In this document: one piece after another, positions 2,309 through 22,650 of the stretch
Numbering within the stretch: position 1 is the stretch's first letter
Layout: each line of letters opens with the position of its first letter
IMG/VR virus record: IMGVR_UViG_3300044628_000683
Span: 1 to 22,650 of that record
Strand: one strand, 5' to 3'
Length of the DNA: 22,650 nucleotides
DNA from: a virus
The notes under the pieces: model-generated
What the model was told of the DNA's origin: nothing
The model's database searches: none
Seen by the model: the letters and a program-made list of their open reading frames with translations, nothing else
Made by a program: the position numbers and the translations under genes

Positions 2309-5300
2309 TTAAATCTCCTCTATAATTAAAACAGGATAAGACTGACTGAGTGTAGTATATACTCCAGTACCCACCGCTCCTATCCTTTCGCAAGGATTAG
2401 ATACCCACTTAGTTTGTTCTAGTTGAACTGTTGTATTTGCATTTGCATTAATAACAACTGCGTATGCTAACATTGACCCAGCTGTGCTGTCAGCAGTTGA
2501 TGATGCATAAGTACCTCCGCTATTACTAACAGGAGTTGTACCGGTTATTTTAATACTATACTGTAAATGTGGATTATTGAGTGCTGCGGGGTCACAAAAT
2601 GGCACCATAGCAGTAATTTTATAATTACGATTTGCTGTTAAAGTTGCCGTCCATGTAGACGTATCAAACGATACAGTATTACCTAACAACAATCTTTGAT
2701 TATCTAGCCTAATTAATTGCCCTGTTGCAATATTTGCACCTTGTGCTACAGTTAAAGAAGCAATTAAATAACCTTTTACTCCTGTTGTATAATCTACAGA
2801 TGAAGGGCGATATTGCAATATTATACCCGTAGTAGTTGATATTGCTTTTAAAATAGGGTTACTAAATCCAGATGATGGTTCAGTTGCTGTCAATTGCCCC
2901 GCCGTTGCATTACTAACAAAGTAATATTCACCAGCAGTTAAGGTAGTTGTACCGATAACATTCGTCCAGTTTGCTAAAGTTAAAACACCGATTTGTGTAG
3001 TAACAATACTATTCACACTTGGGATACTTGATATTAATTCTGTAGCAAGAGTTGATGCAATATCAGACCTTGCTAATACTAAATTAGTACCATTGTAATA
3101 CACCGCCTTACCAATATCAGCACTTGTAAAACCATGTCCTGTAATATTATAAGTGTTTGTAATTGCTGTGCTACCACCAGCACTTGCTGTATTTAATTGT
3201 TCCCATGTACCCGCAATTGTAGTATTATCTACTAATTGAAAATATATTTCACTATTTGATGCAACTGTGAATATTGAAGTACCTGTATTGTCAGTAATAC
3301 CAACTGTGCCAGTGCTTTTATTAATAACTCTGTATTCTTTACCTTCTAGCAATTTTAAAGAATTTGGTAATTTTATAGTATGAGTTGTAGTCCCCGTTAT
3401 TCTGATTTTACTATTGCTATTAAAATCAAGAGAAGTAACACTAGCAGATGCTACAATCTCCAGTGGTTCAATTGTAATACCAATTGTATTTACACCATCT
3501 TTTATTACTGATAATGCTTTTTTAAATGTATTAGGGCTACTTCCTGTTATTGTATTAACTACAAACGAATGCATAGCAAACGAAGAATTGCCAAAAGTAT
3601 AATCAATAACAGTGGCTGAACCACTTGCTATCTCATAACTAGCCCTTGCTCGTTCTTGTGCTCCTGAACTTCCAGACCATATATTTGTTTGATTTGCCCC
3701 CTCGGTAGCCACTTGGTTTATTGTGCCAAGCAAACTAACTACAAAATCACCTACCGCAGTCGGTGTGCCTACCGCATTATATAATATACTTGCACTAGTT
3801 ACTTGATTGTTATTAAATGCAGTCAATACTTTAGCCGTTGGTGTAGTCTGATTTACATTAGTAAAATTGATTGCTTTAGCTACTACTGAAGTTGTATTAC
3901 TAAGCGTAATAACAATATTAGCCGTTGTTTGTGCGGGGGCAACCAACCCCCAACTTTCTACCTTTTGAGATGTAGATGATGTTCTATTAATTAGTGTCAT
4001 TGCTACACCATTGTAAGTAACACTATTCGCTTGTGCTGATGCCCCGCAAGATAATTGCACCACTAAATATCTATTACTACCCGTTGGCACTGTATGGCTA
4101 ATTGTTAGTGAGTTTGTATTTGTACTAGCCCCAGTCGAACTAACAGCACCCAATACCACTCCACTTGCCTCACCACTTGCAGAGTAAAAATTAATATCAC
4201 CTGAACCACCACCACCTGTACCGTTTGGTGCATATATGTTTATATTATTACCAATTGCATCATTGCCAGTTTTTGCTGTACCTTTTATAATTACATCTAC
4301 ACCCGTGCTGTCTGTCTCTTTTGTACCAAGAATAATATCTTGATTAGCATTTGTCAATAAATAATCAGATTGTTTAGGATATATAAATTCCCAAGTACCA
4401 TTTGCTGTGCTGTTATCAAGTAATACAATATTTATATATAATGAAGCATTTAAAGTATAAATTACTGTAGATGCATCATTAAATATATTAGTGTTACCAT
4501 TACTGTTATTTAATATTGTATATGTAGTACCTTCAGTCAATAAAGTCGCATTAGGTAACTTAATACTTTGAAAGTTTGTACTATTTGCTAATATTTCTAT
4601 TAAACCGTTGTCATTTGCTGTTAGTGTGGTTGTAGAACTAGTAGCTGTAATTTCTCGCTTTTGAGTAACAAACATCTTACTTTCAATACCCTGAGGTGTA
4701 ACTTTAGCCATTACCAAAGGTGTATTTGCTGTGCTACCACTTGCACCCCCAATTGATGTTTTAAAATTAATAATTCCAGATGGTTTATTTCCAGTAGAGT
4801 TTGGGGCTGTAATATCAATATTAGGTGCTTGATTATCAGCACCTGTCATTTGCTGACCTTTTATTTGTACTGTAACTCCGTTAGCCCCTGTTTCTTGCAA
4901 CCCAAGAATAATATCCTGATTAGCATTTGTCAATAAGTAATCCGATATTTCTTCTACAAACGGTGTATGTACATGAGATATTGCAGTAGTGCTATTATAT
5001 TGTATGCTAACAATAATATTTTGTGTATGAGTTGTAGTAGCATATAATTTAACTAACATTCTGTCAGTATTTAGCACTGAGTAAGCCGTTGCGGTTGTCT
5101 CTAAATTTAACTCAGCATAATCTAAAGTTAAATTATTGCCATTGGGATTTGCTGTAAATAATAAAGTAGATGTGTTATCAGCACTATATTTCCACAATTC
5201 AGCATATATCTTAATAACATCACCAGTTGGTATTTTATCAGCCTTGGCTTTTATATTGAAATTCCACAACCCTGAACTTAGACTAAATTTATTAAGTGGT

Positions 5301-19368: not shown

Positions 19369-20463
19369 TTAAATGCCAGTCATCGTTGCAATCGCAGCAG
19401 GTAATCTAATGATAGCACCCGCAACACCAGAACTTATTTTTTGTTTAATTGTAGACATCCCTACAACTGTATTACTAAACAATGCTTGAAAAGTAAATCC
19501 ATTTGATACAGTATCTACCTCGTCTACTTTTTCTAATATTAATTGAACCAAATTACCGCTGTCAGCATCACTTAATCTATATTGACTTGCAGTTACTACG
19601 CGAATATTTGGGAATGTACCCTTAATATATTCTAATGCCGTACGTCCGTAAACATTTGGTTTAACCAAATATACTTGGTCTTGTGGTGATAATGCCAATA
19701 TCATCGGTGTTGTAGTGTCCAAATTAACATTATTTGCTAATTTAGATACTATACCATTGAACATTAATAAAATATCATTTGCAATTTCATTATATTCTTT
19801 ATATTTCCATTTTGCACTACTTGGCTTTGAAACACTTGCTACAGCAGGTATAGCAGGATTAAGGTCACTATCATTCAATAAACCTCTAACTTCTTTTGCT
19901 CTAGCAACGCCATTGAAAAATATATCATTTTGTACTAATACTATTTTTCTCGCCGCAGCCTCTCTTTTTAGAGATATTGCGTCTATTTTGGCAGCCGACA
20001 ATGTAGCAACTTCCAAATCACCGTAATTAATAGCAGTACTGTATCTATATACACCTCTGTTTTCTAAATTTAAGTTAATATCAGAAGTATTTGGCTCATC
20101 TCTATCATCATAATCACTAACGTTACCACTAAAAGCAATTGTTGGGAATGACATTGAGTTAGTTTCTAAACCACCTTGTTGATAATCGCCCCCAATTTCT
20201 CTAAATGCCACTTTTTGCGTAATCGCTTTAATAACTTGATTTGTATAAATAGTAGTCATAAAAGCAGGTACACCAGAACTTGGCGTGTTAAATGAAGCGT
20301 CTACACTATCCATCGCAATTTTAATATGAACCGCTTCTTTTCTATCTGTTGCTAAATATTGTGGATTGTCAGCAAATACAATATTTAAATTATCTTGATT
20401 GTAATTATTATCAAAAATTACTTCAGAAGCGGATTTTATTCTTTCTAAATCTATGTTTTTCAT
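19369..20463 (-). CDS. Major capsid protein (DUF2184-like)
   Basis: ATG 20463 (364 residues) is chosen over the frame's first ATG at 20481. GGGAG lies directly upstream and the start then follows the cement stop by one base. The sequence has a helical N-terminal arm (1-52), then a capsid core: AFMTTIYTNQVIKAITQKVAFREIGGDYQQGG (about 67-98, typical of DUF2184-like capsid proteins), NRGVYRYSTAINYGDLEVA, a spine-helix-like stretch (SLKREAAARKIVLVQNDIFFNG) and a C-terminal P-domain/A-domain strand pattern ending in IKQKISSGVAGAIIRLPAAIATMTGI. IAMDSV at 49-54 may be where the maturation protease removes a 52-residue arm. Capsid identity rests on these motifs plus protease, scaffold and cement genes directly upstream. 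Confidence 0.87.
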   Translation of the reverse strand: MKNIDLERIKSASEVIFDNNYNQDNLNIVFADNPQYLATDRKEAVHIKIAMDSVDASFNTPSSGVPAFMTTIYTNQVIKAITQKVAFREIGGDYQQGGLETNSMSFPTIAFSGNVSDYDDRDEPNTSDINLNLENRGVYRYSTAINYGDLEVATLSAAKIDAISLKREAAARKIVLVQNDIFFNGVARAKEVRGLLNDSDLNPAIPAVASVSKPSSAKWKYKEYNEIANDILLMFNGIVSKLANNVNLDTTTPMILALSPQDQVYLVKPNVYGRTALEYIKGTFPNIRVVTASQYRLSDADSGNLVQLILEKVDEVDTVSNGFTFQALFSNTVVGMSTIKQKISSGVAGAIIRLPAAIATMTGI

Positions 20464-20464
20464 T

Positions 20465-20986
20465 TTAAACTCCCATAACATCAGATACGTTAGATATTTT
20501 CACCAATTGACCTGCTGTTAATTCAGAAGCCACACTAATAAATTTAAAATTAGTTTTTGTATAAGTCGTCATTGTACCACCAGCATCAGCCACAACTTCA
20601 CCAGTTGTATTATTGATATACACAGCCGAACCAGCAACCACAGGATTTGAACCAACCAAAGTCACTAATTTAACATAAAAAATACCACGGTTTGCAACTT
20701 CGCAAGGATATTTATTAAGTATTTGTAACCCCGAATTAGTAGTAATACCTTGTGTTAAATTGATGTTAGAATTATTACGAACAACCATCCCCGCTAATTG
20801 TGTATTAGTACCTTTTGCCTGTGCCACTTGATTATCTGTACCATCTACTAGCCAAACAAAAGTACCAATTTTTACTCCGTTAGTTTCATTTACAATATAT
20901 CCATTTGTTGGATAAAATACAGTAGTTACAAACCCACCTTCGTAACCTTGTGCTAAATCCAACAATGCTTCTTTTTGAAATGCCAT
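20465..20986 (-). CDS. Capsid cement / decoration protein (Gp24-like)
   Basis: This 173-residue protein starts with MAFQKEALLDLAQGYEGGFVTTV, a pattern typical of phage structural cement proteins. It continues as a beta-rich sandwich with GTFVWLVDGTDNQVAQAKG (about 41-59), LAGMVVRNNSNI, PCEVANRGIFYVKLVT and GSAVYINNTTGEVVADAGG, the latter a hallmark of cement and DUF2190-type capsid decoration proteins. It lies between scaffold and major capsid, as usual for cement proteins, and should stabilise the expanded shell. AAGGGG precedes ATG 20986, and its stop is one base before the capsid start. Confidence 0.85.
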   Translation of the reverse strand: MAFQKEALLDLAQGYEGGFVTTVFYPTNGYIVNETNGVKIGTFVWLVDGTDNQVAQAKGTNTQLAGMVVRNNSNINLTQGITTNSGLQILNKYPCEVANRGIFYVKLVTLVGSNPVVAGSAVYINNTTGEVVADAGGTMTTYTKTNFKFISVASELTAGQLVKISNVSDVMGV

Positions 20987-20987
20987 T

Positions 20988-21509
20988 TTATAAGCCCCTT
21001 TCTTTAAGTGCTGTTTCTAAATCTAAACTACCATTAACACTATCGTGTGCCAATGTAGTCAATTCTTTTTTATTAATATTTAATACACTTACTGCTACTT
21101 TTTTCGCATTAGTATCAAGCCCATCAAACGCTATTTTGTTATCTTTTAGTACTTTACTATACAAGGCGTCAGCACTATCAAACGCTGTGCGGTTTATCAC
21201 ACCAATATGCTTTTCGCACAATTCTACAGCCTCGTTATATTCACGTAATTGTTTATTAATCTCATTCTTAACTAACAATTGAAGTGAAGCACTGTCCATC
21301 GCTGTTTTTTTATCATCTTTTTCGTCTTTGTCTTCATCTTCCGCTTTTTTATCTTTGTATTCTTCTTCTTTTTCTTCATCCTCAGCAGGTGTTAAAAATT
21401 TAAGAAGTCTTTCTTTTAGTTCTGGGTTTTCTTGTAGCATGTCTATGATTTTATCATAATCGCTACCTTCTCCAGCCTCTTGGTCTAGTGCTATTTTTTG
21501 TTTTGGCAT
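20988..21509 (-). CDS. Scaffold protein from internal start in the protease gene
   Basis: In frame with the protease, ATG 21509 (codon 242, MPKQKIALD) would give a 173-residue scaffold alone. It is preceded by AAGGAGG with seven bases of spacing, the strongest ribosome binding site of the head section and far better than that of the full-length start. The split falls exactly between protease and scaffold. The same arrangement is known for lambda C/Nu3 and Mu I/Z. Scaffold alone is normally made in excess so that capsid protein assembles around it. Confidence 0.72.
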   Translation of the reverse strand: MPKQKIALDQEAGEGSDYDKIIDMLQENPELKERLLKFLTPAEDEEKEEEYKDKKAEDEDKDEKDDKKTAMDSASLQLLVKNEINKQLREYNEAVELCEKHIGVINRTAFDSADALYSKVLKDNKIAFDGLDTNAKKVAVSVLNINKKELTTLAHDSVNGSLDLETALKERGL

Positions 21510-22232
21510 ATCGCCTCCTCCTTTTGTTAATAATGCGTTACTGTCGTTAATTATCGACTTAGTATTCCTTGGGTTTTCCACATGTGCCACATGGTTTGCA
21601 GATAAATCCGTCATAATTATATCATATGTCTGCTTTTCATGCACCCCACTCTTAACTACAGGCGTATATCTATAACCCGCAGATAATCCTTTTTTACCTC
21701 TTGCCTCAATTTGTTCTACCGCCTCTTTATCCCAAAGAACTATAGAACAAGTCAAATCCTTGCCATCAAAATTAATATCGCTTGATAATGTACCAATAAC
21801 ATTGCTCTTAGGTATATCGTCAGCATACACTACTAAATGAGTATCAAGTAACGGCATGTCTTTAAATGTGTCTTTGGCTTTGTTTATTTCGTCGGCAGGA
21901 CGGTATAGTTTATATATTTGGTCGGCATCTAAGCCCAATGATTGATAGTTAGGTATTTCACGTCCCAAGTATTCAAATACTCCTGCGGACGTAATAATAC
22001 AATTTGCTACTCTTGTGAATTCATTATCGTCTATGGTGCGTTGGCTGTCATTAGCAATGGTGTGTTCTTTTTTTGCACTAACCACTTTTTCTAATACAGC
22101 CGTAGCATATGCGTATTTATTGCTAATATTATTTTTTTCAGCATTAGCAATAGCCTTATCCCACACACCCTCTAACTTTTGTGTAGATATATTTGTCTTT
22201 TTGTGTATTTTTTTTATCAAATCACTTGGCAT
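20988..22232 (-). CDS. Prohead maturation protease (DUF2213) fused to scaffold
   Basis: Residues about 70-222 are the protease. Y/P-rich strands precede LLDTHL with His132, GLSAGYRYT contains the likely nucleophile Ser184, and NHVAHVENPR with His214/His217 follows, as in DUF2213 proteins related to herpesvirus-type prohead proteases. Residues 1-55 are a separate small helical domain. From 242 on the protein is a scaffold: acidic helix, a strongly charged tract (282-309, Glu/Asp/Lys only apart from Ala/Tyr) and coiled-coil helices. An I/T-A-x-D motif recurs at 59-62, 247-250, 310-313, 349-352, 367-370 and (as IIND, LAHD) 227-230 and 394-397, mostly before Ser. It may be the cleavage site. The ATG at 22232 has no good ribosome binding site. 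Confidence 0.87.
   Translation of the reverse strand: MPSDLIKKIHKKTNISTQKLEGVWDKAIANAEKNNISNKYAYATAVLEKVVSAKKEHTIANDSQRTIDDNEFTRVANCIITSAGVFEYLGREIPNYQSLGLDADQIYKLYRPADEINKAKDTFKDMPLLDTHLVVYADDIPKSNVIGTLSSDINFDGKDLTCSIVLWDKEAVEQIEARGKKGLSAGYRYTPVVKSGVHEKQTYDIIMTDLSANHVAHVENPRNTKSIINDSNALLTKGGGDMPKQKIALDQEAGEGSDYDKIIDMLQENPELKERLLKFLTPAEDEEKEEEYKDKKAEDEDKDEKDDKKTAMDSASLQLLVKNEINKQLREYNEAVELCEKHIGVINRTAFDSADALYSKVLKDNKIAFDGLDTNAKKVAVSVLNINKKELTTLAHDSVNGSLDLETALKERGL
21510..21523 (-). promoter_or_regulatory. Internal ribosome binding site for the scaffold start
   Basis: AAGGAGG at 21523-21517 followed by AGGCGAT and ATG 21509. As protein this stretch reads as the Gly-rich KGGGD linker between protease and scaffold, so codon choice here serves both the linker and the ribosome binding site. 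Confidence 0.75.
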
Positions 22233-22365: not shown

Positions 22366-22650
22366 TCAAATTTCTAAAATTGGCACAGAATAACAATTAC
22401 AGTTTATTTTTTCCGCAGGTTGTATATACTCACCGTCAATATAACATCCTTCTTCAAGATTGTATATTTTATTATTAGCCTTGAGATGTGATTGCCTTGG
22501 TTCTTTGCTTGCTGTACTATGTTTCCATTTTGCTTTAGTAAATCCTAAATCCAATTGCCTCGCTCTATTAATAACATTAGTAGAGTAATCTAATTGATTT
22601 TTAGCAATTAATTTAACTCTTTTTTTATTTATTGTATTTATTTTAGATAA
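22366..22650 (-). CDS. Head morphogenesis protein (Mu gpF / SPP1 gp7-like), C-terminal part
   Basis: The frame is open from base 22650 down to a TGA at 22366, so only the last 94 residues are seen and the start is outside the window. They show the Mu F-type end: a helix with KLIAKNQ and STNVINRARQ, LGFTKAKWKHSTASKEPRQSH (the W-x-HS...PR-x-SH block), then GCYIDGEYIQPAEKINCNCYSVP with the conserved P-x-E-x-INC-x-C core. Such minor head proteins bind the portal and are injected or help DNA packaging. A TTG at 22554 could be taken for a start, but the conserved region begins further upstream. Confidence 0.85.
   Translation of the reverse strand, partial: LSKINTINKKRVKLIAKNQLDYSTNVINRARQLDLGFTKAKWKHSTASKEPRQSHLKANNKIYNLEEGCYIDGEYIQPAEKINCNCYSVPILEI

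Follow-up and report, generated by a model that had tools for sequence, protein, structure and literature searches.

The T4 prohead protease gp21 recognises the motif [L/I]-x-E, and phiKZ gp175 recognises [S/A]-x-E. The motif of SPN3US gp245 is A-x-E, favouring Ser at P1' and V or A at P4; the enzyme of this phage processes the portal, the major capsid protein (MCP) and itself. We searched the open-access literature and found in it no cleavage motif for proteases of the DUF2213 family.

Cryo-EM structures are available for two phages with related head proteins, E217 and Pa193 (PDB 8FRS and 9B40), whose MCPs were modelled over residues 66 to 382. The E217 authors left it undecided whether the first 65 MCP residues are cleaved or disordered. 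In Pa193, residues 1-93 of the portal were neither seen in the structure nor detected by LC-MS, and cleavage is named as a possibility. A fragment of Pa193 gp24, residues 286-326, is present in the capsid, and its authors were unable to tell if gp24 undergoes cleavage. The main texts of both studies contain neither the word 'protease' nor a cleavage motif. Cleavage of the capsid arm is reported for phage 7-7-1; the 7-7-1 region that we examined holds neither MCP nor protease.

The window, that is, the whole stretch of 22,650 nucleotides analysed here, carries a group of head genes on the minus strand at its right end. They encode a partial MuF-like head protein (22366-22650), a DUF2213 protein of 414 residues (20988..22232), a cement/decoration protein (20465..20986; PF22758, E 1.3e-19) and an MCP of 364 residues (19369..20463). 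The order protease-scaffold, cement, MCP recurs in nearly all annotated phage records examined, and in 288 of 288 complete pairs drawn from phage records, viral contigs and genomes. The window's MCP matches PF09950 (2.7e-7; 30.6 bits, cut-off 26.8) and Pa193 9b40_A (9.5e-14), and its nearest solved relatives are the capsid proteins of E217 and Pa193 (8frs, 9b40). Both phages resemble the window in having a homologous protease-scaffold (gp24 in Pa193), cement protein and MCP, the latter visible only after an AMDS tetrapeptide.

The DUF2213 protein (PF09979; 116.6 bits, cut-off 22, E 1.5e-33) matches PHROG 2229, head maturation protease, at 5e-71. Among solved proteins, the closest to it in sequence is Pa193 gp24, a 'scaffolding protein': while gp24 was labelled a putative scaffold by its authors, the homologue here is a protease-scaffold. 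We modelled it with AlphaFold2 from 42 sequences, with a mean pLDDT of 77; an earlier model from 6 close sequences had a pLDDT of 38 and was set aside. The best Foldseek matches of the model are to 5jbl, T4 gp21 (prob 0.92-0.96, E 0.003-0.02), and VIA-align superposes residues 63-220 on 5jbl_A with a Z of 11.4 and an rmsd of 2.6 over 129 residues. Herpesvirus assemblins (HCMV and VZV proteases) share the fold at Z 6-9, below the value for gp21.

In assemblins, the protease is fused to the scaffold and the invariant residues follow the order His-Ser-His. Residues H132, S184 and H214 of the window's protein, invariant in an alignment of 42 diverse sequences, come in the order of that triad. The chain divides into a helical N-terminal domain (1-59), the protease (63-230; 21543..22046, minus strand), which lies between the first two motif copies described below, and the scaffold (231-414). 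On its sequence and model, the protein is best read as a prohead protease of the T4 gp21/herpesvirus assemblin type with its own scaffold, and with predicted proteolytic activity. The likeness to gp21 would reach beyond the protease fold to the substrates, scaffold and shell precursors, and to a cut behind an acidic residue with a short P3 preference; T4 differs by its [L/I]-x-E motif, its separate scaffold gp22 and its uncut portal.

The preliminary description drew attention to a pattern, [ILT][AI]-x-D, listed seven times in this protein as a candidate maturation site. All seven copies are found at the residues given there, but the loose pattern occurs eight times: TIDDN at 66 had been omitted. 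Against 1.34 copies expected from shuffling, this is a 6-fold excess (P about 5e-5). The strict form A-x-D-S, with four copies (60, 311, 350 and 395) against 0.20 expected, is 20-fold enriched (P about 5e-5). Across the 27 ORFs of the window A-x-D-[SA] occurs five times, four of them in the protease-scaffold and one in the MCP arm; the other 25 ORFs lack it, among them that of the cement protein, which serves as an internal control.

All seven copies are encoded on the minus strand. The first predicted site, IAND|S (59-63; 22044..22058), has a motif score of 10.1, is kept by near relatives and adjoins a linker with pLDDT below 50 (55-61). It divides the N-terminal helices from the protease, as had been proposed: the gp21 match begins at residue 63. 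Candidate site IIND|S (227-231; 21540..21554), where the protease domain ends, combines an invariant Asp230, which may mark a cut or be structural, with a motif score of only 1.4. Since the gp21 match spans residues 63-220, these first two copies bracket the protease domain. IALD|Q (247-251; 21480..21494), a weak candidate scoring -1.3, falls within the disordered segment 232-257 and is kept by near relatives.

Two predicted sites follow in the scaffold: TAMD|S (310-314; 21291..21305), at the start of the helical region, with a score of 12.9 equal to that of the MCP site, and TAFD|S (349-353; 21174..21188), in the loop between helices 314-343 and 354-364, with a score of 7.8. Conservation of Ala311 and Asp352 in the 42-sequence alignment is 90% or higher. 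A further weak candidate, IAFD|G (367-371; 21120..21134), occupies an inter-helix loop, scores 1.7 and is kept by near relatives. The last predicted site, LAHD|S (394-398; 21039..21053), is 17 residues from the C-terminus in a disordered segment (394-403), and its Asp397 is invariant. With the fourth low-confidence linker of the model, 281-311, six of the seven motifs lie within or directly beside linkers or in inter-helix loops, and IINDS is placed where the folded domain ends. By sequence, the strong copies among the seven candidates are ANDS 60, AMDS 311, AFDS 350 and AHDS 395, while IALDQ 247 and IAFDG 367 score weakly. The Pa193 gp24 fragment 286-326 was rejected as support for cleavage at the motif, because its borders differ from the motif copies.

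The MCP carries the motif in its N-terminal arm. IAMD|S (20305..20319, minus strand; motif score 12.9) spans residues 49-53 from ATG 20463, in agreement with the preliminary description, and residues 55-59 from ATG 20481. The start at 20463 is supported by near relatives, whose alignment with the longer ORF begins at its residue 7. In the MCP, LATD and IAND also fit the loose pattern, which is thus unspecific there when taken alone. Residues 1-52 would constitute the propeptide (20308..20463, minus strand). In the alignment, the arm preceding the motif falls on residues 1-65 of E217 and Pa193, which their structures do not show, and in the homologous Pbunavirus MCP residues 62-65 read A62-M63-D64-S65, directly before the first visible residue 66. 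The mature MCP that had been predicted to start at Ser53 fits these models, which begin one residue after the equivalent Ser65.

A model that starts exactly after Ser65 would also suit cleavage of the same motif after Ser or Ala (A-x-D-S|N), and herpesvirus assemblins do cut Ala|Ser sites, not after Asp. We nevertheless consider a cut at this position unlikely, as one unmodelled terminal residue is usual. Moreover, all seven motif Asp residues are kept in 9-11 near relatives, while several sites differ in the residue that follows (S, N, G or E). What stays constant in the motif is thus the Asp rather than the Ser. That P1' tolerates several residues beside a fixed Asp favours Asp as P1. The characterised gp21-type phage proteases in the literature examined, those of T4, phiKZ and SPN3US, have closely similar motifs and all cut immediately behind the acidic residue, and it is by analogy with gp21, gp175 and gp245 that we place the predicted cut directly after Asp.

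We reduced 288 syntenic loci to 79 representatives at 80% MCP identity and aligned them; 74 form the main clade, with a mean MCP-core identity of 38%. Every one of these 74 has a D-[SAD] site 10-19 residues before the first anchor of the MCP core, of the type D-[SA] in 72 and A-x-D-[SA] in 53. Its P3 residue is Ala in 53, Gly in 12 and Val in 5; P2 is Met in 50, and P1' is Ala in 58 and Ser in 14. The site is absent from its usual place in the MCP of the five distant DUF2213 phages among the 79. A D-[SA] also lies 10-24 residues from the C-terminus of the protease-scaffold in 71 of the 74. Within the same phages, both the MCP arm/core border and the scaffold keep the motif, in line with the predicted shared maturation site, and homologues whose scaffold keeps the motif while the capsid arm lacks it were not seen in the main clade.

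The expected co-variation between the two proteins was found in part. A small P2 in the MCP site goes with a higher number of small P2 residues among the scaffold sites (P 0.0005), also when permuted within broad clades (P 0.002-0.01), but not significantly within the finest clades (P 0.2); P3 co-variation is weak within clades (P 0.02-0.15). It lends mild support to a shared cleavage motif.

To quantify specificity, we compared A-x-D-[SA] counts with per-protein shuffles in the 74 main-clade phages. Observed-to-expected ratios are 8.7 in the MCP arm (64 vs 7.4, z 21), 3.5 in the scaffold (224 vs 63.6, z 20), 5.4 in the portal's first 110 aa (z 10) and 3.0 in MuF (z 8). The protease domain gives 1.5 (z 1.7), and there is no excess in the MCP core (0.37), cement (0.83), sheath (0.79) or the rest of the portal (1.07). 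A-x-E-[SA] is unenriched in MCP arms (1 vs 2.9 expected), scaffolds (49 vs 67.6), portal N-termini and MuF alike, and A-x-N-[SA] is unenriched in the scaffold of the 74 phages. The rule of Glu at P1, common to T4, phiKZ and SPN3US, does not extend to these phages by enrichment, which concerns A-x-D-[SA] and not A-x-E-[SA].

A motif model made from the MCP arm sites alone, leaving out the scored phage each time, finds 143 matches in scaffolds against 11.1 expected (12.9-fold over shuffles), 33 against 2.1 in portal N-termini (16-fold) and 18 against 3.8 in MuF (4.7-fold). Its excess is modest in the protease domain (11 vs 2.2) and nil in cement (0 vs 4.0), sheath (6 vs 8.9) and MCP core (2 vs 3.9). 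Other ORFs of the same loci contain 20 matches in 120,638 aa, or 0.17 per 1000 aa, compared with 7.26 in scaffolds.

These figures bear on whether the MCP arm is removed at all. It could be merely disordered, as the E217 authors allow, its likeness to the scaffold motifs being due to chance or to shared ancestry of a short duplicated segment. Such an account is barely credible given a z of about 20 for the MCP arm as well as for the scaffold, a leave-one-out prediction that works, and control proteins without the motif. As for duplication, the likeness beyond the motif that had been noted between scaffold AHDSVNGSL and capsid AMDSVDASF is not shared by relatives, in which LTYDS-NGVIDL or LAHDGLSNSL is found instead.

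It is also very unlikely that the motif is no cleavage site but a structural element (helix N-cap or linker) or one that binds scaffold to shell. Several copies do stand just before predicted helices, and Asp230 is invariant at a folded-domain edge. However, other N-cap residues are unenriched at this position in scaffolds (ratios of 0.57 for A-x-N, 0.68 for A-x-T and 1.34 for A-x-S, versus 3.5 for A-x-D), and we reject the N-cap explanation on this ground. The sheath and the MCP core show no excess, and the motif recurs in four unrelated proteins, upstream of each folded core.

We propose that the protease very probably cleaves directly behind the Asp of (hydrophobic)-A-x-D|(S/A preferred, others tolerated), and would in this way free itself, break the scaffold and trim the MCP arm. 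It would act once the prohead is built. With cuts near 62/63 and probably 230/231 the protease domain would be released, and further cuts at 313, 352 and 397 (possibly 250 and 370 too) would break the scaffold at inter-helix loops. A cut after Asp52 would remove MCP residues 1-52, leaving a mature MCP that starts at Ser53. The same enzyme would probably trim the N-terminal arms of the portal and the MuF-like protein. The analysis shows the protein families, a predicted fold, conservation, and enrichment by position and by protein; we infer cutting as such, Asp rather than Ser as P1, and the portal and MuF as substrates.

The proposed site resembles those of phiKZ gp175 and SPN3US gp245 in motif geometry, a Ser-favoured P1' and multiple sites per propeptide. 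P1 is Glu in both, whereas here it is predicted to be Asp, with A-x-E unenriched. This departure from the Glu of characterised relatives counts against the Asp rule.

The portal and MuF are probable substrates that the preliminary description had overlooked. In the window's own clade, the portal has MAMD-N near residue 76 and MuF has IALD-K near residue 59. The related portal of Epa7 contains a single A-x-D-S in its arm, AMDS at 70-73. From their sequences, both N-terminal arms are probably trimmed by the same protease; that the SPN3US portal is also processed makes the prediction plausible for the portal.

We think it likely that an entire lineage of phages whose protease-scaffold is of the DUF2213 type relies on an Asp-directed code, A-x-D|[SA], for scaffold and protease, MCP, portal and MuF; it would represent an Asp-specific branch of gp21-type proteases. 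If true, this would provide a cleavage rule, of which we found none in the literature searched, for a phage group that is large and in clinical use: Pbunavirus, Obolenskvirus, Bcep1-like phages, and many prophages of Enterobacteriaceae and Acetobacter. It would explain why the first 65 capsid residues of E217 and Pa193 are missing from the cryo-EM maps, and Pa193 gp24, published as a putative scaffold, is likely to be a protease as well. The substrates of any member would become predictable from sequence, with new N-termini predicted for MCP, portal and MuF.

Two translation starts can be considered for the major capsid protein (MCP) of the window: the longest open reading frame begins at 20481, within the end of the cement gene, and an alternative ATG lies at 20463, just past the cement stop codon. 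The latter is the more likely start, and with it the numbering of the preliminary description, which placed the predicted cleavage motif IAMDS at residues 49-53 of the MCP, is correct.

In a distant DUF2213 branch with psageK9, RHEph04, Geezett and P818 (loci L026, L027, L035 and L039), the MCP is short and devoid of the long N-terminal arm. Three of these four proteins retain D-A about 7 residues upstream of the core anchor (AFQDA, TFDA and FRDA); that of P818 carries KADA 5 residues before it. The MCP of a Helicobacter pametensis prophage (L029, region 2791-3927) retains LAMDA. Its protease-scaffold slot is occupied by a putative chitinase, with no DUF2213 protein among the annotated neighbours; the prophage is possibly degraded, or the gene swapped.

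Long antisense ORFs are annotated over the head genes of JQ177063 (L022, 4444-7179) and MT161386 (L024, 5724-7688), covering protease-cement-MCP or the MCP; the true head genes are therefore absent from both annotations.

A peptide resembling [L/M]-D-A-Y-L is conserved in many Pbunavirus-like scaffolds (e.g. L213, L216, L226 and L280). Situated downstream of the last cleavage motif, about 7 residues short of the C-terminus, it is a candidate shell-binding tail.

In near relatives from the window's clade (L003, L004, L005, L006, L286 and L287), A-x-D also occurs upstream of the cores of the portal (MAMDNNP, near residue 76) and MuF (IALDKAP, near residue 59). Across the main clade, the motif is enriched 5-fold in the portal N-terminus and 3-fold in MuF. 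Because of this occurrence and enrichment, both proteins are probably additional substrates of the head protease.
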